This document shows positions 29,586 to 39,127 of a DNA stretch of 64,000 bases, in pieces (position 1 is the first letter of the stretch; every line of letters begins with the position of its first letter). Made by a program: the position numbers and the translations under genes. This DNA is from Epsilonproteobacteria bacterium tcs-49. GTDB lineage: Bacteria > Campylobacterota > Campylobacteria > Campylobacterales > Sulfurovaceae. Where the stretch lies: assembly GCA_002049495.1 (NCBI GenBank), contig LLYS01000012.1:1-64000 (forward strand). Direction: 5' to 3'. The notes under the pieces were generated by a model. That model searched no databases. It saw nothing but the letters and a program-made list of their open reading frames with translations, and was not told where the DNA came from.

Positions 29586-31559
29586 CTAGAGTTTGCGTAT
29601 CTTTGCGATCTCATCACGCAGTCTCGCCGCTTCCTCAAACTCCAGATTTTTCGCCGCCTCTTTCATCTTTTTCTGCATCTGCTTGACCAGTTTGTCCTTT
29701 TCGGATTTGGGCATCTTGTCCAGCTTTTTGCGCTTTTCGTACAGATCGCCCATATCCTCGACTTTGAGATCCTCGTCAAGCTTACGGATCGTCGTCTTTG
29801 GCGTGATCCCGTGCTTTTTGTTGTGTTCGATCTGCAGTTCCCGGCGCTTTTGGGTGATCTCCATCGCCGTTTTCATGGAGCCGGTGACCTTTTTGGCATA
29901 AAGCAGCACCTTGCCGTTGCTGTTTCGCGCGGCGCGCCCCATGGTCTGTATCAGCGACGTTTCACTGCGCAAAAAGCCCTCTTTGTCCGCATCGAGCACG
30001 GCGACGAGGCTTACTTCGGGCAGGTCCAGCCCCTCTCTGAGCAGGTTGATCCCCACCAGCACGTCAAACTCCCCCTGCCGCAGGGCGCGGATGATCTGGT
30101 TGCGCTCCACCGCGTCGATGTCGCTGTGCATATACTTGACCCGGATCCCCAGATCGGCGTAGTAGGTGGTGAGCTCTTCGGCCATCTTCTTGGTCAGTAC
30201 CGTCACCAGTACCCGCTCGTTGCGTTTGATCACCTCTTTGATGCGATCGTGCAGATCCTCCACCTGGTATTCGCTGTCGATCACCTCGATCTCGGGGTCC
30301 AGCAATCCCGTGGGACGGATCACCTGCCGCGCGATGGCCGCGGAGTGCTCCTGCTCAAACTCCCCGGGGGTGGCGGAGACAAAGAGGTAGCTGGCCTTTT
30401 TGGCGATAAATTCGTCAAACTTCAGCGGGCGGTTGTCCAGCGCGCTGGGCAAGCGAAACCCGTAATCGACCAGCACCTCCTTGCGGCTGCGGTCCCCCGC
30501 GTACATCCCGCGAAACTGGGGCAGGCTCACGTGGGACTCATCCACGATCAAAAGATAATCCCGGTGTTTGGCTTCAAAGTAATCAAGCAGCGAATACGGC
30601 GTCTCCCCGGGCTTTTTTTGCGTCAGGTGGCGGGAGTAGTTTTCCACGCCTTTGCACATCCCCGTCTCCTCCAGCATCTCCAGATCAAACTCGGTGCGCT
30701 GTTTCAAGCGCTGGTACTCGACGATCTTGTCCTCTTTTTGGAAGTAGTTCAGCCGCTCGCCCAGCTCCTCTTCGATGGTTTTGATCGCCTGTTTCATCCG
30801 ATCCTGGCCCACGATAAACTGGCTGGTGGAGTAGATGGTGATCTCGTCGTAATCCTTGATCTTTTTATTGGTCAGCGGATCGAAACTGTAGATGCTCTCC
30901 ACCTCATCGCCGAAAAACTCCAGCCGCAGCGCTTCGTCCTCGCTATAGGGCGGATAGATATCTACCACGTCGCCGTTGACTTTGAAATCCCCCCGGTCGA
31001 AGTAGTTGTCGTTGCGTTTATAACCCATATCCACCAGCCGCAGCAGAAATTCGCGCTGGTCCAGCTCGTCGCCCACGCAGAACTTGATCACCATCTTTTG
31101 GTACTCTTCGGGGTCACCCAGCCCGTAGTTGGCCGAAACGGAAGCGATGACGATCACGTCGTCGTAGTTGAGCAAACTCGCCGTAGCGCTTAAGCGCAGC
31201 CGCTCCAGCTCGTCGTTGATAGAGCTGTCCTTTTCGATAAACAGGTCACTGCGGGGGATGTAGGCTTCTGGCTGATAGTAGTCGTAGTAGCTGATGAAAT
31301 ACTCCACGTGGTTGTGGGGGAAAAAGGCTTTGAACTCGCTGTAAAGCTGCGCGGCGAGGGTTTTGTTGTGCGTCATGATAAGCGTGGGGCGCTGCAGCCG
31401 CTCGATGGTCTTTGCCATGGTGTAGGTTTTCCCGCTGCCCGTGACCCCAAGCAGGGTTTGGAACTTGTGGCCCTCTTCGATGGACTGGACGAGGGTATCG
31501 ATGGCCTGGGGCTGATCGCCCGCGGGTTCATACTGGCTGACGACTTCGAGTCTTTCCAT
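29586..31559 (-). CDS. uvrB: Excinuclease ABC subunit B
   Basis: 657 residues, nucleotide-excision-repair helicase. Walker A GVTGSGKT (~39-46), beta-hairpin [21 protein letters not shown], helicase motif VI region QTMGRAARN and the C-terminal UVR motif EAARLRDEI are present. It marks the distal, chromosomal flank of the cassette array that follows upstream. Confidence 0.97.
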
Positions 31560-31663
31560 ACGCTATGCTCCTTGGCTTATTTTAGGAGCAATTTTATCGT
31601 AATCTTGCCGCTTTGTGAACCGTGAGGGGGATTTTTGTTTTTTGACTAGCGGGTGTTCAGCCC

Positions 31664-31734
31664 GAGATAACGTTTAAAATGAGCCAATAAATTGCCCGTA
31701 GGGTAATTTATTGGCTCCTCTGATTTGTTATGCA
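31664..31734 (-). repeat. attC site 1 (distal)
   Basis: Cores GAGATAAC (31664-31671) and GTTATGCA (31727-31734). Inner arms GAGCCAATAAATTGCCC and GGGTAATTTATTGGCTC pair at 16 of 17 positions around a three-base loop. Belongs to the 173-residue cassette; its distal core GAGATAAC does not match that cassette's start, so it marks junction with the flank or a lost cassette. Confidence 0.85.
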
Positions 31735-32249
31735 TTTTTTCTTTTAAACACAGAAAAGACTTTTTTGAGGTCAACACCAGCTTTCTGTTCTTTTTTAACT
31801 TGAAAATTCTTAATTTCTTTCTTTTCTTTAATATCTGTAAATATTTGCTCAATAATTTTTAGAACATCAGTAGGTTGATTGCAAATTCCTTTTAATTGAA
31901 TAAATACAATTTCATCTTTTGGGAGTGAACCACTTCGAGTCATTTGATTGTCTCTTTCTAAAAAATATTGCGGATGAATAGAAGTAATCATAATTGCTGG
32001 AAGAATATCTTCAGGTTTCATACCATTCAGACTTTCCCATGATAATAGCTCTGAAAAAAAATGACTTTCTCCAACAGGTTGTATTACTACGGCATCATTT
32101 TTTGAGGCAAATTCTGCCATACGATCAAAATTAGATCGAAGAGTATTGCCTATCGGTTCATCCCAATTGTAATAATCAAGTACATACAAATAGTAGCTTC
32201 TTGATACATTTTCTGGAATTTCTGCAATTGAGTGAATTTTTAATCCCAT
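31728..32249 (-). CDS. Cassette protein of unknown function
   Basis: 173 residues, no signal peptide or membrane segment, C-terminus Lys-rich (KKVFSVFKRKNA). A central mixed alpha/beta region includes NDAVVIQPVGESHFFSELLSWE and EIVFIQLKGICNQPTDVLKII; pattern suggests a soluble nucleotide- or thioredoxin-like fold but I recognise no family. TAA stop lies inside the attC core, and the ATG sits about 20 bases from the cassette start, both normal for integron cassettes. Base use is far more AT-rich than uvrB. Confidence 0.75.
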   Translation of the reverse strand: MGLKIHSIAEIPENVSRSYYLYVLDYYNWDEPIGNTLRSNFDRMAEFASKNDAVVIQPVGESHFFSELLSWESLNGMKPEDILPAIMITSIHPQYFLERDNQMTRSGSLPKDEIVFIQLKGICNQPTDVLKIIEQIFTDIKEKKEIKNFQVKKEQKAGVDLKKVFSVFKRKNA

Positions 32250-32270
32250 ATATTTTCCTTATTGTGTTTA

Positions 32271-32341
32271 TGCATAACGTTTGAAATGAGCCAATAAATT
32301 GCCCGCAGGGTGATTTATTGGCTCCACTGTTTTGTTATACA
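32271..32341 (-). repeat. attC site 2
   Basis: Cores TGCATAAC (32271-32278) and GTTATACA (32334-32341); arms GAGCCAATAAATTGCCC and GGGTGATTTATTGGCTC pair at 15 of 17 positions. Nearly identical to sites 1 and 5. It is the 3' end of the hamAB cassette. Confidence 0.87.
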
Positions 32342-34650
32342 TATCTATGAATCGCATCATATCTTTCTTCACTAAGCTCATTTATAGATGTTTTAAAAAC
32401 AATTTCATTTTCGTCAATAGAATCGATATGATTTTTTAACCAGTCTATGTCTTCAAATCCGAAACCATATCGTAAGAGCCAAATTTCAATTTCATCGTTT
32501 GTTCCATAACGTATAAAATTCTTCATAATCAGTGCTCTAGAATCGGTTGTTTTGTTATAGTACAATTGGAATGCAGCACAAATCGGGTCAACTAATGATA
32601 GAGAAACCACCTTGTCTAAATAATCGTACGTGTCATAAACCAATGTGTCATAATCAAATTCAGAAATAGATGTATTTCTAGGGAATATTGATGCTTCTCT
32701 TAAATCCTTATTGGGTAAAGAGGATGGAATGGGCGAATATCTGATTTTTAGAGATTCTATTTCTTTTTTAGCATCTAGTGGAGATAATTCGCCTAATTTG
32801 ACTTTTGCTGTAATTTTTCTAACTTGATCTTTTTCTGTTATAAATGCATGGCGTAACGAGACCATTTCGCTGAATGATTTTCCTTGAATATGCCATAGCA
32901 TAATTGGGATAGCCGTACTTAAGACAGCTTTTTCGGCTCTATTTAAGCTAGTTCTTCTTAGGTGTTTAACAAATATTTTTTGGAATGAACTTTTTATTTT
33001 TTTTCTTACTTCATCATCTAGTTCATAATAACTTCTACCTGTTATCGGAACATTATTATGTAAAAGGTTTTCTAATATATATGATATATCTTGCTCTAAA
33101 CTTGTCCCTTCTAAACGCTCAACTTGTGTATTTGTCAAATGCAATTCATCGTTAAAAGTACCTTCTTTAACTGCTTCTACGATATCTTTTACATCATCTG
33201 AGATTGAGGAAAACTCTTCATCAATTTTAGAAACTTCATTTAAAAAGTAGTCATCATTTATTCTTGAACAAAATGTACTTACATTTTCTTGTTTTATGAT
33301 TGTGTATCCATATTCAAAGTTACTATTTGTTGAAGTGGTACGTCCAGCTCTACCAATTAAATTTTTTAAACTAAGTGTAGGAAGATTACGAAAATTATCA
33401 ATCCAGACTACATCGAATGGCATGTTGATACCTTGAATCAATGTGCTAGTTGCAAAACAGATATGGACGAAATTTGATCTAACAAAATCCTCTATAATCA
33501 ATCTTGCATGTAAAGGCATAGATCCATGATGGATTACAATTCCTTTTTCCATCATGTTAATTAATAATGAATATTTATCAGTGTCATTTGCACCAATGAA
33601 TTTTTTTAGCTTTTCGATCAACCTAATTGCATTTGGGTCTGTAATCTTGTTACATAGTTCAATATATTGAGCAAAGTCAGTCAGATATCTACCATCATAT
33701 ATTTTATTCTTTGCAATATATACTAATAAAGTACCACCTTGTTCCAGTATGTTTTTTACGATATCTGTATTCAAAGTTTTGATATATCGATTTTCTTCTG
33801 GGTAATATGGAGAAAAATATTTAAAATCATTATTTTTATGAGACAAAAACACTTTTCCAACAGAGTGCTGGTCATATAATCTGTAGTCAGCGTTATTTGT
33901 GAAGTGGTGTTTTAAGAGTTGTGCTTGCGGATTATTTACAAAAGGATGGGTAAATACTTTTTTTGCGTCTGGTAAAACCTTATCAATTCTTCGGACAAAT
34001 GCATCAAATTTCATTCCTCTAATATTTTCCTCTGATATTTGTGCTTCATCTAGTAAAAATAGCTTAATATTGAATTGCCCAACATTTTTAAATAATTCCG
34101 GACCTCTTTCTGGTGTAATAACAAATATTCTACGTTCGATTTTTGAAATGTTAATATTCTCAATAAATGGTAAGACTAAGACGGAATTTTCTACAAACTC
34201 ATTGATAGTATCTATATACTCTGCAATTAACGCGCGTGAAGGGACTACTATGACTATGTCATAATCTATGTTTTGAATTAGCTCGCGAAACAAATAGGAC
34301 TTACCTGCACTTGTTGGTGCAGAAAAGGAAAAATACTTTTTTTCGTTAATATTTAAATATGCATGCGCTTGTACAGGAGTAAAAGTTCTTCCGGTTTCTT
34401 CCCTGATAACATCTTCGTATATCGAATATACTTCATCGAGTAAACTTTCAGGCTCTGTTGTCTTATAGAATAGACCCATTGCATACAAAAGCTTTTTTTC
34501 ATATTTTCTTAAAATATCATCGTGAAATATTTTAATATATGCCAATTTTTCAAAACTAGCCGAGTCTATCGGACCATTATTATGAATGGTATTAATTATA
34601 TTAACCAGTGTTTGTTCAACATTCTGATTTTCAATGATGTGTTTAGGCAT
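32335..34650 (-). CDS. hamB: HamB-like helicase of a Hachiman-type defence system
   Basis: 771-residue superfamily 2 helicase of the Ski2-like kind. Q-motif region FTPVQAHAY (~90), Walker A APTSAGKS (~111-118), motif II DEAQ (201-204), then HHGSMPLHARLIIEDF, FATSTLIQGINMPFD and NLIGRAGRTT for motifs IV-VI, and a helical C-terminal region. In Hachiman systems HamB holds and regulates the nuclease HamA and senses damaged or phage DNA; HamA is encoded immediately upstream with an 8-base overlap. The stop codon is inside attC site 2, so both genes move as one cassette. AbpB-like helicases are the main alternative assignment. Confidence 0.75.
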   Translation of the reverse strand: MPKHIIENQNVEQTLVNIINTIHNNGPIDSASFEKLAYIKIFHDDILRKYEKKLLYAMGLFYKTTEPESLLDEVYSIYEDVIREETGRTFTPVQAHAYLNINEKKYFSFSAPTSAGKSYLFRELIQNIDYDIVIVVPSRALIAEYIDTINEFVENSVLVLPFIENINISKIERRIFVITPERGPELFKNVGQFNIKLFLLDEAQISEENIRGMKFDAFVRRIDKVLPDAKKVFTHPFVNNPQAQLLKHHFTNNADYRLYDQHSVGKVFLSHKNNDFKYFSPYYPEENRYIKTLNTDIVKNILEQGGTLLVYIAKNKIYDGRYLTDFAQYIELCNKITDPNAIRLIEKLKKFIGANDTDKYSLLINMMEKGIVIHHGSMPLHARLIIEDFVRSNFVHICFATSTLIQGINMPFDVVWIDNFRNLPTLSLKNLIGRAGRTTSTNSNFEYGYTIIKQENVSTFCSRINDDYFLNEVSKIDEEFSSISDDVKDIVEAVKEGTFNDELHLTNTQVERLEGTSLEQDISYILENLLHNNVPITGRSYYELDDEVRKKIKSSFQKIFVKHLRRTSLNRAEKAVLSTAIPIMLWHIQGKSFSEMVSLRHAFITEKDQVRKITAKVKLGELSPLDAKKEIESLKIRYSPIPSSLPNKDLREASIFPRNTSISEFDYDTLVYDTYDYLDKVVSLSLVDPICAAFQLYYNKTTDSRALIMKNFIRYGTNDEIEIWLLRYGFGFEDIDWLKNHIDSIDENEIVFKTSINELSEERYDAIHRYV

Positions 34651-35347
34651 TTACTTCGATTCCGATCACATATAACTCATCATGCTCAAGCAAATCATCT
34701 ATGTATGTTGAGCTGAGTGCATTATTAAGTATATCTGCTGGATTTTGGCTATTGATAGAAAAAGCTGCTACAAATCCTTTTTGATCTTGTTTAATATTTT
34801 CAATAGATTCGGCAGATACAAAATATTGTAAATCAACTAATTCTGCCACATCTTTTTTTAGTACAACAAAATCTGCGATTTGCTCCATTGCGTTTCTATA
34901 GGGATTCCCCGTACCACTGTATTTAGCTTCACCAAAGGCAATTAAATTTGTATGAGTTTCTGTGTGAAAATCAAATCCAGGATTTCCGGTAACTTTTTCT
35001 TTTAGCAATTCTGCCAATGGTACTTTAGTATGATTGTGTTGCATTTCCAATGAGTCTTGTGCTGAAGCAGATATAAGGAACTCACCGAATTCAGTACTTA
35101 CAGTAGTGCTGACTTTTTTCAATATATCATTGACTAGCTTTTCAATTGTCCTTTCTGCTCTAGCTTCATAACTCATTCTAGGAATAATGCCAAGTTCATT
35201 TATCCAACTTTTGTTTGATAGCATATCTATCATTTCACGGGCTCTAACTCCAATATCAGTTATTTTCACATGTATAGAAAACACATTACAGTCAGTCGTC
35301 TTTCCATAGTCTTGCATATTTTCAAGTTTACAACTTATGATTTCCAA
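34643..35347 (-). CDS. hamA: HamA-like DUF1837 nuclease of a Hachiman-type system
   Basis: 234 residues. The nuclease core has PLAELLKEK, GFDFHTE (D126) and IAFGEAKYSGTGNPY with E140-x-K142, the D...ExK arrangement of PD-(D/E)xK enzymes and of DUF1837/HamA. First gene of the cassette: its ATG lies 14 bases inside the cassette start at 35368, and it overlaps hamB by 8 bases. By analogy it degrades DNA once HamB releases it. Assignment rests on motif and gene order, not on a profile search. Confidence 0.72.
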   Translation of the reverse strand: MEIISCKLENMQDYGKTTDCNVFSIHVKITDIGVRAREMIDMLSNKSWINELGIIPRMSYEARAERTIEKLVNDILKKVSTTVSTEFGEFLISASAQDSLEMQHNHTKVPLAELLKEKVTGNPGFDFHTETHTNLIAFGEAKYSGTGNPYRNAMEQIADFVVLKKDVAELVDLQYFVSAESIENIKQDQKGFVAAFSINSQNPADILNNALSSTYIDDLLEHDELYVIGIEVNA

Positions 35348-35360
35348 TGTGTTCCTTTCA

Positions 35361-35431
35361 TGTATAACGTTTGAGTTGAGAAATATTTGAGCCGCAGGGT
35401 CAAATATTTCTCTCCAATGATTTGTTATGTA
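35361..35431 (-). repeat. attC site 3
   Basis: Cores TGTATAAC (35361-35368) and GTTATGTA (35424-35431). Arms GAGAAATATTTGAGCC and GGGTCAAATATTTCTC form the stem; the arm sequence differs from sites 1, 2 and 5 while the loop GCA and flanks are shared. 3' end of the small secreted-protein cassette. Confidence 0.85.
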
Positions 35432-35433
35432 TT

Positions 35434-35811
35434 TTAGTCAAATCCATTTTTTTTACAAAGTTTTTTAAATAGTAAAACATTATCTTCACATATGCTTTGA
35501 ACAATTTTTTGATTTTTAAATTCTGGCTGAGGATAAACTCTATTAACTGTCATCTTAGCACAAACATCTAGTCTATAATCAAATTCACTTCTTTGAGTTG
35601 TTGATAATTTTAATTTTTCAACTGAGTTGGCTGTTATCATAACTAGTTTTCCACAATTTGTTATGACAATATCTTGTATTTCATTTTTATTCCCACCATT
35701 AGCAACCCATGAGTCTAAATTTTTAAAATATGATTTTTCAACCTCTTCAATTGTTGAAGCATTGAGATTTAATACAAAAATTAATGTTATTAAAAATAAT
35801 ATCTGTTTCAT
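35434..35811 (-). CDS. Small secreted cysteine-containing cassette protein
   Basis: 125 residues from ATG 35811 with AAGGATAGAC upstream; the longer open frame would run back through the next attC and is rejected. Signal peptide at ~1-18 (hydrophobic core ILFLITLIFVLNL, cleavage near NAS). Mature part has four cysteines (NCGKL, VCAKM, ICEDN, LCKKN) that could form two disulfides. No family recognised. Single-gene cassette bounded at 35828. Confidence 0.75.
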   Translation of the reverse strand: MKQILFLITLIFVLNLNASTIEEVEKSYFKNLDSWVANGGNKNEIQDIVITNCGKLVMITANSVEKLKLSTTQRSEFDYRLDVCAKMTVNRVYPQPEFKNQKIVQSICEDNVLLFKKLCKKNGFD

Positions 35812-35828
35812 GTCTATCCTTACATAAC

Positions 35829-36008
35829 GTCCGTGCTGAGCGACACTCAGAAAGGAGGATTGAAAACGAAGTTTTCGAAATCCAACTGAATGAGTGGGAA
35901 AGAGTGTTCGCTCCTGCGACTTGGTATCTTGAAACTGCGAAGCAGTGAAAGATGCCAAGAACTCGTTCAGCACGGACGGTATCTCTGCGACGCAGGAGCA
36001 GAGATACC
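35829..36008 (-). mobile_element. Gene-less microcassette with multi-hairpin attC
   Basis: About 180 bases without an ORF. Terminal arms GTCCGTGCTGAGCG (35829-35842) and CGTTCAGCACGGAC (35964-35977) match at 13 of 14 positions. Inside are nested stems: GAAAAC-GAA-GTTTTC, CTTGGTATCTT with AGATGCCAAG enclosing ACTGC-GAA-GCAGT, and GCGACACTC with GAGTGTTCGC. The cassette core pair GGTATCTC (35978-35985) and GAGATACC (36001-36008) is perfectly complementary, leaving a body of only 15 bases. Both cores carry GG/CC where others have GTT/AAC. Confidence 0.7.
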
Positions 36009-36071
36009 GTTTAAAATGAGCCAATAAATTGCCCACAGGGTAATTTATTGGCTCCACTGATTTGTTATGTA
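36001..36071 (-). repeat. attC site 5
   Basis: Cores GAGATACC (36001-36008) and GTTATGTA (36064-36071); arms GAGCCAATAAATTGCCC and GGGTAATTTATTGGCTC, 16 of 17 paired. Same subtype as sites 1 and 2. 3' end of the HEPN-like cassette. Confidence 0.85.
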
Positions 36072-36643
36072 ATTTTTACTTTGAATTGTTCTTGCTCATT
36101 CAATAAACTATTGGAAACTATCTTTAAAGCTTCACAAGCTAAATCAAAATTTCCATATTCAAAATAAAAATATTGCCATTCTTTAGTTCTCCCTTGTTCA
36201 AACATGTACCGATACATAATAAATATGTCATTATTATTTTTAAATAATTGCTTTAATTTTGTTCCTCTTTCAGGATCATTATTAGAGTTGTTAGGATCTG
36301 ATTTTTCTAATGAAGCTCGAATATATAAAGTTTCTTTTCTAGTTTCACCATCAAGAGATTTATATTCTTTGTTTAATCGTTTTTGTATATTAGGTGATAA
36401 TTTATTATGTAAATCATCTAAATTGTGTCCATGGGGTTTATTGTTTCCTTCCATAATAATTAAAGTTTTTAAATATAACTCCATCGCTAAACCATAATTA
36501 GTCGCTGATGCAAATACTATTGTCGGAGAAATTTTATTTGTATTTTTATATTGTTGTAAACATCCTTTAGCAACATCATGAAATGTACTTGCTGAAGCTA
36601 GTGATGTAATATAATCAAACTTTTCTGATGGCTTTGCTTTCAT
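36065..36643 (-). CDS. HEPN-like protein, cassette gene
   Basis: 192 residues, helical. NYGLAMELYLKTLIIMEG followed by HGHNLDDLHNKL (~49-80) is the pattern of HEPN-type four-helix proteins, here without a clear Rx4-6H RNase motif; RYMFEQGR lies later (~145). HEPN proteins are common in toxin-antitoxin and defence loci. Stop in attC site 5; 12 bases downstream of the second HEPN-like gene, so co-transcribed. Function inferred only at fold level. Confidence 0.65.
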   Translation of the reverse strand: MKAKPSEKFDYITSLASASTFHDVAKGCLQQYKNTNKISPTIVFASATNYGLAMELYLKTLIIMEGNNKPHGHNLDDLHNKLSPNIQKRLNKEYKSLDGETRKETLYIRASLEKSDPNNSNNDPERGTKLKQLFKNNNDIFIMYRYMFEQGRTKEWQYFYFEYGNFDLACEALKIVSNSLLNEQEQFKVKIT

Positions 36644-36655
36644 ATATTGCTTCTC

Positions 36656-37303
36656 CTATTTTTCTTCATTTAATAAAAAAGCTTTAATATCATTAATAAA
36701 TGGTCTCAATCTTCTATAAGCAATTTTAGACTGTTCAATTTCATACTCAATGTTTTTTTTCGCTGCGGCTTCAATATGTATACTATTTCTTAGTGTGTAA
36801 AAACTTTTTATTTCATCTGCGTAAATTTCATTAACAAAGCCTATATCTACAGAAGCATCAACTTTATCATGGAAAGGGATTGAAGTCCAAGGAGTTTTTG
36901 TTTCTTTTTTTAGACATGTAAAGATTTTGTTACCTTCATAAGTAATCTCAGTTAATCCTGAAAGAGCTGCAATATCTTTAAGACTTATATGTGTAGATAT
37001 TTTTTTTACATTCTCATCTTCTTTAAAATTATTTAATAGTAAATAGTTGATTACAGCTTCATAGATTGAAGCATATTGAATAATTTGAAACTTCAAATGT
37101 GCATGTAGCTCATAGTCTTCTAAAAACAAGGCTTCCATCAATTTATAAATGTATCTGGCTGTATAAAATTCTCTTGCAAGAGATTCTTGTAAAGCTTGAT
37201 CTTTAATAAAGTCAAATTCATTAATATACCAATCATGTTCTTGTGGTAAATCTCTTTTACAGTAGTTTAAGACTTCATCTATAATTTTAGTTTCTAATGG
37301 CAT
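36656..37303 (-). CDS. Second HEPN-like protein, cassette gene
   Basis: 215 residues, mainly helical. LKFQIIQYASIYEAVINYLLL (middle, ~69-89) and FYTLRNSIHIEAA near residue 168 resemble the HEPN pattern in which a conserved Arg-Asn precedes a histidine on the last helices. A possible RNase or non-catalytic partner of the adjacent HEPN-like gene. Its ATG abuts the half-deleted attC 6, so the natural upstream part of its cassette is missing. Confidence 0.6.
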   Translation of the reverse strand: MPLETKIIDEVLNYCKRDLPQEHDWYINEFDFIKDQALQESLAREFYTARYIYKLMEALFLEDYELHAHLKFQIIQYASIYEAVINYLLLNNFKEDENVKKISTHISLKDIAALSGLTEITYEGNKIFTCLKKETKTPWTSIPFHDKVDASVDIGFVNEIYADEIKSFYTLRNSIHIEAAAKKNIEYEIEQSKIAYRRLRPFINDIKAFLLNEEK

Positions 37304-37308
37304 TTATG

Positions 37309-37331
37309 TCTCTCCAATGTTTTGTTAAGTA
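37309..37331 (-). repeat. Half-deleted attC site 6
   Basis: Only the right side survives: TCTCTCCAATGTTTT, nearly identical to the right flank of site 3 (TCTCTCCAATGATTT), and core GTTAAGTA (37324-37331). The left arm and distal core are missing and the sequence joins directly to the start of the HEPN-like gene, pointing to a deletion that fused two cassettes. Confidence 0.7.
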
Positions 37332-37681
37332 TTGAAATAATTAGCCAAATCATTTGATGACCAACCACCCCTTCCTGGCTTTCCAGGTGTACCCGACAAA
37401 CCAGGTCTCCCTGGACGTCCAGAAAACCCTGGCATACCTGGAGTACCACTCATTCCAGGACGACTAGGTAAATACCCTGTTGAGTTTCGCAAAAAGCCCA
37501 AAGCTTTGTTTTGATTATCATAGAGAACTCCATCTTCAAACCAACCGATATGTCGTCCTTGGAGTGAATACATATTGTTGTTATATATCCAAGCTATTAC
37601 TTGACCATTACGATTTCTAAAACAATCATTGTCATGAATTAATGTTGCTTGTCCATTGCGGTTGAATACCCAATCTGCCAT
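37325..37681 (-). CDS. 4-fold beta-flower-like protein with collagen-like tail
   Basis: 118 residues. N-terminal ~70 residues show four repeated short strands with N-x-x-G turns (NRNGQATLI, NRNGQVIAWI, LQGRHIGWFEDGVLYD, NKALGFLRN), matching the 4-fold beta-flower domain. Residues 75-104 are ten x-G-x triplets rich in Pro (PGM, SGT, PGM, PGF and so on), a collagen-like stretch. No signal peptide. Stop codon inside the attC 6 core, ATG close to the cassette start at 37703. Role unknown; beta-flower proteins often appear in accessory and defence regions. Confidence 0.7.
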   Translation of the reverse strand: MADWVFNRNGQATLIHDNDCFRNRNGQVIAWIYNNNMYSLQGRHIGWFEDGVLYDNQNKALGFLRNSTGYLPSRPGMSGTPGMPGFSGRPGRPGLSGTPGKPGRGGWSSNDLANYFNT

Positions 37682-37695
37682 TTATTCTCCTTTTA

Positions 37696-37767
37696 TACAT
37701 AACGACAGAGTGCAGCCGACCGTGCCGCGCAAGCGGCACGAGGTCGGCTGACACGACGGGTTAGAGC
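37696..37767 (-). repeat. attC site 7 (GC-rich type)
   Basis: Cores TACATAAC (37696-37703) and GTTAGAGC (37760-37767). Arms CAGCCGACCGTGCCGC and GCGGCACGAGGTCGGCTG pair with a two-base bulge, i.e. the extrahelical bases expected of attC. Composition is utterly unlike the AT-rich sites and recalls attC types of GC-rich Proteobacteria. Confidence 0.85.
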
Positions 37768-37991
37768 GCGGATGACGAGGACTTGGACTTGAGACAGAAC
37801 AGTTCCCACAGGCCAGGGTGCATGCGGGCAATACCGGCCTCCCAGTCCTGCCATGTGCGGCGCGTGGAGTACACCAGCGCGGCAGCAGCAGACTGCGAGA
37901 GGCTGGCAGCCTCCCGCGCTGCGCGGATCTGCTCAGGCGCGGGGTTTGCCGCCGAGCTACCCCGGCGGCTGCGGTTCGGGTGGTTAGGCAT
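37761..37991 (-). CDS. Helix-turn-helix regulator, foreign cassette
   Basis: 76 residues from ATG 37991, which overlaps the upstream gene's stop. IRAAREAASLSQSAAAALVYSTRRTWQDWEAG is split between two helices of an XRE-like HTH of the type found in plasmids and phages, followed by MHPGLWELF. Probable DNA-binding autoregulator; a palindrome fills the promoter spacer upstream of this operon. GC-rich codon use contrasts with the neighbouring cassettes. Stop inside attC 7. Confidence 0.75.
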   Translation of the reverse strand: MPNHPNRSRRGSSAANPAPEQIRAAREAASLSQSAAAALVYSTRRTWQDWEAGIARMHPGLWELFCLKSKSSSSAL

Positions 37992-38205
37992 TTTCGATGC
38001 CTTCCATCGGGTCAACCTCTGAGGCATCGGCCATAGCCACCCATTCGGCCCAGGAGTAAACCGCGGCAGGGGATTCTGCATCGTGAGCGCCTACCGGGGC
38101 TTCGGATTCCCATTCAGCGGCCTGAGCGGTAGCGGCGGCTTCATCGGTGAATCCGACAACGCGGAGCAGTTTGGAAGATGTAGCAACGTGAGTGAATGTG
38201 GTCAT
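37984..38205 (-). CDS. Small Ala/Glu-rich cassette protein
   Basis: 73 residues, acidic and Ala-rich, no membrane segment, starts MTTFTHVATSSKLLRVVGFTD split by a predicted strand and helix. Unknown family. First gene of a two-gene cassette with the HTH gene (8-base overlap). Could be the partner or toxin/antitoxin half of the HTH protein, but nothing in sequence proves it. Confidence 0.6.
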   Translation of the reverse strand: MTTFTHVATSSKLLRVVGFTDEAAATAQAAEWESEAPVGAHDAESPAAVYSWAEWVAMADASEVDPMEGIENA

Positions 38206-38265
38206 GGTGATTCTCCAGCCCCTGAATCCCCCGAGGCGCGGTATGTAGCGTCTGGCTACGGTTTA

Positions 38266-38294
38266 ATAATGGCACGGATTCCGTGCAATTGCAA
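38266..38294 (-). promoter_or_regulatory. Cassette promoter with palindromic operator
   Basis: On the minus strand TTGCAA (-35, 38289-38294), 17-base spacer, CATTAT (-10, 38266-38271). The spacer is filled by a perfect 15-base palindrome, GCACGGA-A-TCCGTGC (38272-38286), a likely binding site for the HTH protein of the operon. Confidence 0.6.
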
Positions 38295-38340
38295 GTGCAG
38301 AAACGAAAATATTTCTCGGGCGCTGAACTAGCGCTCTAAC

Positions 38341-38473
38341 TATTTATTAAACATACAAAATGTACATTTATTATCGATATACCACAATATTCACACATTT
38401 TGTAAAGCATAAATTAAACACTAATATTAGCAAAAAATTATTAAATATTCTATATCGATTCAGTTTTACGTTA
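38341..38473. other. AT-rich spacer at the proximal end of the array
   Basis: Gene-free, very AT-rich stretch between the first cassette (starts at 38340) and the toxin-antitoxin remnant. This is where attI and a divergent intI would be expected; I see neither a recombinase frame nor a recognisable attI. Together with the cassette leader it makes ~315 bases without a gene. Confidence 0.6.
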
Positions 38474-38529: not shown

Positions 38530-38826
38530 GTGGTTTTTGATCCCGAAGATTACTCTCAAAATCTATTTTGGCAATCGAAAGGAAAAAGTGAACAAAAGGT
38601 ATACTCGATCATTTCCAAGTATCTGTCCACGATGAATAAAAATGATATCAAGATGCTGTGTAGCCAATTTGGTAAAACCATAGTCAAAAGCGTACTTAAA
38701 GACAGATATAAAAAGATGTATGCAAAGGGGTACATCTCCACAAACGGCATCGATATACCGTTAAGCGGGAAATTTGAACACAATGAAATCTATAAACAAC
38801 TTATGGGGATGATAGATGACTGCTGA
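38530..38826 (+). CDS. Putative antitoxin partner of an AbiEii-like toxin
   Basis: 98 residues, helical, basic, unknown family; contains LCSQFGKTIVKSVLKDRYKKM. Start is uncertain: GTG at 38530 lies 14 bases from AAAGGA (38511-38516), whereas the better placed ATG at 38522 is out of frame, hinting at a small indel at the start. Its last codons overlap the ATG of the AbiEii-like remnant, the usual antitoxin-toxin layout, and the operator lies upstream. Confidence 0.55.
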   Translation: MVFDPEDYSQNLFWQSKGKSEQKVYSIISKYLSTMNKNDIKMLCSQFGKTIVKSVLKDRYKKMYAKGYISTNGIDIPLSGKFEHNEIYKQLMGMIDDC

Positions 38827-39127
38827 TGTCAAACGAGCTCTTGATAAAATCTCTCATCACGCCATCTTTAACGATGAGTTATACTTCACGGGAGGTACGG
38901 CTTTATCGTATTATTTGCAGCATAGAGTCTCTGAAGATTCTGACTTGCAATGAGATGATTAGCGTATTTTCGCAAATGGACGCTACGATCACCTCCGCCA
39001 GCAATATCAAAAACCTCATCAACTCAAAAATGAACCCCGCGACGACGAAGCCGTCTATCTCAGCCAAAGCGATACAAACAATCTCTCCTTTGACGAAATC
39101 AAAAAAAGCGTTCTTGCAAAATTATGA
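38816..39127 (+). pseudogene. Remnant of an AbiEii/AbiGii nucleotidyltransferase toxin
   Basis: ATG 38816 encodes 45 residues with the nucleotidyltransferase signature FTGGTALSYYLQ then RVSEDSDL, ending at TGA 38951-38953. Full-length family members are several times longer. Past the stop, a shifted frame (about 38990-39127) encodes a C-terminal-looking piece ending SFDEIKKSVLAKL. An internal deletion and frameshift have therefore destroyed the toxin. The end abuts the acyl-CoA dehydrogenase-like gene. Confidence 0.7.

Follow-up and report, generated by a model that had tools for sequence, protein, structure and literature searches.

The DNA described here is a stretch of 64,000 nucleotides (the window; bases 1-64000 of contig C4) from Epsilonproteobacteria bacterium tcs-49, a member of the Campylobacterota whose genome assembly comprises 2.22 Mb in 17 contigs and is 99.9% complete. 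At 31665-38340 on the minus strand lies a gene-cassette array in which, read from 38340 to 31665, genes alternate with attC sites in the canonical order, all cargo genes being encoded on that strand; uvrB (29586-31559, minus) follows just downstream in the same orientation. Judged from sequence, this is a genuine integron array that comprises six complete cassettes plus a remnant and begins with an attI site of its own, with no integron integrase gene (intI) adjoining. Below we describe its recombination sites, its cassettes, and its relation to the intI found elsewhere in the same genome and to similar arrays across the order.

attC sites and cassette boundaries

Since a simple core-and-arm scan for attC was either too strict or too noisy, sites were located using a covariance model (R1) built from 23 aligned attC sites of integron loci from the same order, the structure being drawn by hand from the same 23 sites. 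In the R1 alignment 94.5% of cells are paired, compared with 79.6% after shuffling, a figure that is biased toward the hand-given structure because it was from these sites that the structure was drawn. Compensatory changes are stronger evidence for attC structure than the percentage paired: double-sided changes occur in 10 of 16 pairs, with 41 compensatory cells compared with 8.9 when shuffled. A search of the window with R1 returned exactly five strong sites (E 2e-14 to 9e-6; 82.5 to 40.6 bits), all inside the array and best-scoring on the minus strand, and beyond these the next non-overlapping match in the 64 kb reached only E 0.79. Four of the five had contributed to the training set, which makes their scores partly circular; the attC of cassette 2 (36002-36070, minus) had not, yet scored 72.2 bits (E 3e-12). 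With one long attC and one half attC, both described below, the attC-like sites total seven. Paired R'' and R' cores and a conserved stem are present in the array's attC sites, and in each of the six cassettes the start and the R'' are complementary at 7/7 positions, a trace of circular cassettes. No Rfam family matched the array, the only match being a chance one to mir-186 (E 0.12).

An earlier note, prepared from the letters of the window, had counted seven attC-like sites, placed all cargo genes on one strand, confirmed five cassette boundaries by core complementarity, located the array upstream of uvrB in a Campylobacterota chromosome, and looked to covariance matches to attC for support. 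All of this has held, with six boundaries in place of five and with strong R1 matches confined, within the 64 kb, to the array. The same note named as its own refutation the possibility of dispersed hairpin repeats unrelated to integrons. While the hairpins are indeed repeated and near-palindromic, they are tied to cassette boundaries with matching cores in six of six cassettes, they display canonical TAAC..GTTA pairing with covariation, and the same sites adjoin intI across the order; we give this explanation virtually no weight and have excluded it.

The attI site and the integrase of the same genome

Cassette 1 is preceded by an orphan attI region (38338-38445, minus) with the core TATGTTTAATAAATAG/TT at 38355-38338 and the junction G at 38340. 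The 19-mer TATGTTTAATAAATAG/TTA is identical to that of the attI beside intI on contig C1, such that the junction core is the same as in the intI-linked site of this genome; it occurs in two exact copies in the genome (C4 and C1), while the reversed 19-mer has no match there even with three mismatches allowed. A 105-nt portion of the region is 75% identical to an attI-like site on contig C3 (E 6e-13), and 36 nt of the region share 92% identity with the attI that adjoins intI in genome G382. The C4 core also matches the consensus of 64 attI sites, TATAATGTtc.tt.AATAAATAG. An upstream direct repeat of the core, as found in class 1 attI, is weak overall (best-match score 8.44 compared with 8.29±0.11 for shuffles), with the best matches clustering somewhat near 40 nt. 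Insertion by IntI at a chance attG-like site upstream of uvrB, an off-target event of a kind firmly known from other settings (Loot et al. 2024, cited in PMC12444791), would agree with the lack of an intI remnant at C4. However, the junction lies inside the 105-nt block that has a homologue at another of the genome's attI-headed sites and carries the conserved attI core, making such an origin highly improbable.

By eye, species-specific motifs near attI may recur in the intI promoter. Between attI and the next gene, at 38530-38953 (plus), a 98-aa ORF with a weak match to DUF5461 is followed by a short ORF that, by eye, resembles a truncated AbiEii-type nucleotidyltransferase.

The window contains neither intI nor a remnant of it. 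The single intI of the genome is located on contig C1 (139043-139984) and encodes a full-length IntI (TIGR02249, 411.6 bits; cut-off 265) with a tyrosine-recombinase core and an N-terminal SAM-like domain in Pfam. It faces its own attI, followed by a gene-less mini-cassette, a 219-aa gene, a YCII-domain gene, a three-gene cassette, and more attC. On contig C3, the attI-like site (L170 6463-8070, minus) heads a single cassette with a strong attC, the cargo of which is a 503-aa ORC/CDC6-like AAA ATPase. The genome thus carries one intI and at least three attI-headed arrays (C1, C3, and C4), and one type of mini-cassette is common to the C1 and C4 arrays. The middle protein of the C1 three-gene cassette (L008 4468-7425, minus) matches the PADLOC candidate defence family PDC-M09A (4.6e-26).

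The search for intI elsewhere in the genome, proposed by the earlier note, has therefore qualified its description of an integrase-free array classed as a cluster of attC sites lacking an integrase (CALIN). The array does have at least two attC and no intI nearby, as a CALIN has, and it is not a complete integron, in which intI would adjoin attI and the array. Nevertheless, C1 carries a full IntI together with an attI and an array, and the C4 array retains an attI, making it more than a CALIN.

Cassettes and cargo

Cassettes are numbered from attI toward the far end, and all features in this section lie on the minus strand. Cassette 1 (37703-38339; 637 nt; start GTTAGAG, R'' CTCTAAC) is GC-rich, contains ORFs at 37984-38205 and 37761-38081 with a Pfam HTH_31 match at cut-off, and ends in an attC of GC-rich type (37697-37766; 40.6 bits, E 9e-6) that was part of the training set. 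Cassette 2 (36008-37702; 1695 nt; start GTTATGT, R'' ACATAAC) is apparently a fusion of two cassettes. Within it lies a half attC consisting of R''-L'' only (37305-37333), with an ATG directly after it; this half site shares 90% identity with the 5' half of the cassette 4 attC (35362-35430) and reaches just E 4.2 with R1. The cargo of cassette 2 comprises a beta-flower/collagen-like protein (37325-37681; Pfam Bflower, 2e-30), a 215-aa protein with an RNSIH motif that is HEPN-like by eye (36656-37303), and a HEPN-like protein of 192 aa (36065-36643) whose Pfam HEPN match (3e-4) falls just under cut-off. The beta-flower protein has a collagen-like Gly-Xaa-Yaa tail and a weak relative in another attI-headed array (L163), and the two neighboring genes with the RNSIH motif and the weak HEPN match, sharing one cassette, may form an RNase pair.

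Cassette 4 (35368-35827; 460 nt; start GTTATGT, R'' ACATAAC) carries a 125-aa ORF (35434-35811) and the training-set attC at 35362-35430 (78.2 bits, E 2e-13). Cassette 5 (32278-35367; 3090 nt; start GTTATAC, R'' GTATAAC) contains two genes and the training-set attC at 32272-32340 (79.5 bits, E 1e-13). One gene encodes a HamB DEAD-box helicase of 771 aa (32335-34650; PADLOC HamB, 5.6e-54) that also matches the solved HamB 8vx9 (3.9e-7); the other encodes a HamA-like protein of 234 aa with an FGEAK motif (34643-35347), whose match to Pfam HamA is below cut-off (E 0.041). This protein is 40% identical to a protein of genome G175 that adjoins a HamB homologue and in which FGEAK is conserved; this was the one other relative found in 299 genomes, and no attC was present near it. 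Cassette 5 is thus probably a Hachiman system packaged in a single cassette, with a predicted role in anti-phage defence. Cassette 6 (31671-32277; 607 nt; start GTTATGC, R'' GCATAAC) has a 173-aa ORF (31728-32249) with no Pfam or PADLOC match and ends in the last complete attC of the array (31665-31733; 82.5 bits, E 2e-14), likewise a training-set site. Expression and function of the cargo, including anti-phage defence for the Hachiman-like cassette, are presumed throughout.

Gene-less palindromic mini-cassettes

Cassette 3 (35828-36007, minus; 180 nt) contains no gene. The core at both ends, where start and R'' are complementary at 7/7 positions as in the other cassettes, is a GGT/ACC variant instead of the usual GTT/AAC, and the 5' hairpin is formed by GGTATCTCTGC..GCAGAGATACC. 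The palindromic body prolongs the R'/R'' core pairing and continues into a long branched attC (35822-35984, minus; 163 nt; arm score 40.5, compared with null maxima of 28-34) whose long main stem closes a multibranch junction. The cassette is 71% identical to mini-cassettes of another genome and belongs to a family found across the order, in which elements of 156-196 nt with branched attC fall into three types; cassette 3 is of type 3. At the far end of the C4 array, a truncated remnant of a type-2 mini-cassette with an internal deletion (31641-31670, minus) retains TTATCTCGG and GGGCTGAACACCCGCTAGTCA, which match the type-2 element that opens the C1 integron as its first cassette and suggest exchange between the two arrays.

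Copies of the family were located at L008 (8580-8739, minus), L089, L096, L098, L103, L104, L110, L119, L155, L159, and L189. Mini-cassettes often stand directly at attI as the first cassette, for example at L008, L089, L119, L155, L189, L139, L079, and L159, and are otherwise placed after attC sites or in tandem. BLAST with type 1 found matches in 24 of 399 genomes, the weakest being short partial ones, and with type 3 in 7 of 399; several draft contigs end inside a mini-cassette, which suggests multiple copies. The sequence varies while pairing is kept: in 16 distinct copies, pairing is seen at 340 of the 352 stem positions tested, compared with 261±5 with shuffled partners, although the former figure is overstated because the copies were partly selected for pairing. 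In several mini-cassettes a TAAC-like core, similar to the start core, occurs a second time internally (e.g. GATAACAAG and AACAACAAA), and the inner core of the copy in the window (35920-35935, minus) has the same ACC variant as its start core. This second core hints at alternative attC folds. Gene-less mini-cassettes may be a minimal mobile unit of the system.

attI-headed arrays across the order

Of 399 genomes of the order, 69 encode IntI, representing 27 of 87 genera, and the core AATAAATAG/TT was present at nearly all intI loci inspected. Integrons in the phylum have also been published, Campylobacterota being listed among integron phyla in a review (PMC8618304) and CALINs being tabulated for Sulfurovum NBC37-1 and Sulfurimonas autotrophica (PMC10295459), so the earlier view that such an array is unusual for this phylum cannot be maintained. 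The attI pattern GTNNNNNNAATAAATAGTTR was surveyed in 77 genomes (the 69 with IntI and 8 chosen for mini-cassettes), where it gave 75 matches compared with 12 for the reversed control, often with several per genome sharing the same variable hexamer.

Examination of 40 loci yielded 42 attI-like sites, 5 of which have intI or an intI fragment adjoining; the remaining 37 include one (L164) whose closeness to a contig end leaves an adjoining intI possible. At 22 of these 37, some of them in single-contig genomes, attC sites detected by R1 follow on the same strand. Where the upstream flanks of intI-less sites are similar to the intI-attI spacer of their own genome, they match it over approximately 20 to 261 nt. 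Long spacer homology (233-261 nt at L135, L143, and L152, which have no intI) is what would be expected from loss of intI, as is an intI fragment adjoining an attI-like site at L149 (5232-5700; 64.8% identity over ~71 aa), a possible intermediate of such loss. Split contigs do not explain this layout, given that in four one-contig genomes (G166, G027, G303, and G382) intI and other attI-headed sites are tens to hundreds of kb apart; the C4 attI likewise lies deep inside its contig. Among genomes with no strong IntI match, attI-like sites, often two sharing one hexamer, were observed for example in G009, G015, G086, G035, and G004.

Origin and present state of the C4 array

Taken as a whole, the data are best explained by a second integron platform that would have arisen by duplication or acquisition and later lost intI while keeping attI and cassettes; the single C1 IntI could then recombine the C4 array in trans and move cassettes between the attI-headed arrays, of which there are at least three (C1, C3, and C4). 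We consider this reading likely as a whole. Its parts differ in strength: loss of intI with retention of attI and cassettes is well supported, with intI loss being what we infer as the origin, and we further infer that the C1 IntI may still act on the C4 attI.

Several observations weigh against this reading. No intI remnant lies upstream of the C4 attI. The truncated left end and the half attC in cassette 2 are signs of decay. The position of TATAAT reads CATTTT at C4 and C3 and TACAAT at C1, and the candidate cassette promoter may therefore be weak. Fifteen of the 37 attI-like sites without intI have no attC by R1, several of these being at contig ends, and at L138, L146, and L147 homology to the linked attI extends over just 22-28 nt, so some sites may be something other than duplicates of attI. 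The attI pattern still occurs 33 times in 77 genomes that lack a strong IntI match, compared with 10 for the control, meaning that attI copies can persist after intI loss. The 40 relatives searched do not otherwise include the source genus, and the closest of them have UvrB just 76% identical, too distant to show an empty site.

The main rival draws on several of the same data: the C4 array may be a fossil that lost intI long ago, its attI and attC being relics unused by the C1 IntI. The half attC, the truncated left end, the CATTTT sequence, and attI-like sites in genomes lacking a strong IntI match all speak for such decay, and a proposal exists that CALINs are integrons that have degraded (PMC9024848). 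A fossil is nevertheless difficult to reconcile with perfect cores and attC structure in all six cassettes, with a 19-nt attI core that exactly matches the intI-linked attI, and with a mini-cassette type common to C4 and C1; we therefore regard it as rather unlikely.

Extending the preferred reading, in which the C1 IntI serves the C4 array, beyond this genome, many Campylobacterota might possess a distributed integron, with one IntI acting in trans on attI-headed arrays scattered over the chromosome, so that their CALINs would be live satellite integrons, and gene-less palindromic mini-cassettes moving among these arrays. This generalization is tentative, and we hold it with somewhat more doubt than belief.

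Comparison with known systems

The adjoining HamB-family helicase and HamA-like protein with FGEAK resemble Hachiman (HamA-HamB), whereas the HamA-like protein of cassette 5 is too divergent to reach the Pfam cut-off, and the pair is packaged as one cassette with its own attC. For both the palindromic mini-cassette type and the multi-copy attI-headed arrays with one intI, no description was found in the open-licence literature, and both look like new variants.

The term CALIN denotes attC sites that are clustered but have no integron integrase with them (Cury 2016, as given in PMC8618304 and PMC9024848). The C4 array resembles one in having at least two attC, no intI nearby, a chromosomal location, and AT-rich cargo, but differs in starting with an attI that has homologues at other attI-headed sites in its genome. 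By the usual definition just attC and intI are counted, the standard tool skips attI outside class 1 (PMC9024848), and descriptions of attI beyond class 1 integrons are said to be poor (PMC9024848, PMC8618304). CALINs may arise by loss of the integrase, by rearrangement, or by off-target insertion (PMC9024848, PMC8618304); an attI conserved for a whole order, with several per genome heading intI-less arrays, makes the question of their origin directly testable. In Xanthomonas, CALINs also occur away from intI, and the account of them in PMC12444791 that we drew on reports no attI for those.

Partial attI copies out of their normal place are also known from the Delta-attI gene cassettes of class 1 and 2 integrons (PMC12901181). 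Those copies, however, replace attC behind an ORF within an array, whereas the C4 attI precedes an entire array that is located elsewhere on the chromosome. With sedentary chromosomal integrons, as in Vibrio and Xanthomonas, the C4 array shares an attI, cassettes in one orientation, and a gene-then-attC layout; here, in contrast, intI is on another contig and there are several attI-headed arrays per genome, not one, a layout which suggests that a single integrase could look after more than one stock of cassettes, anti-phage genes among them.

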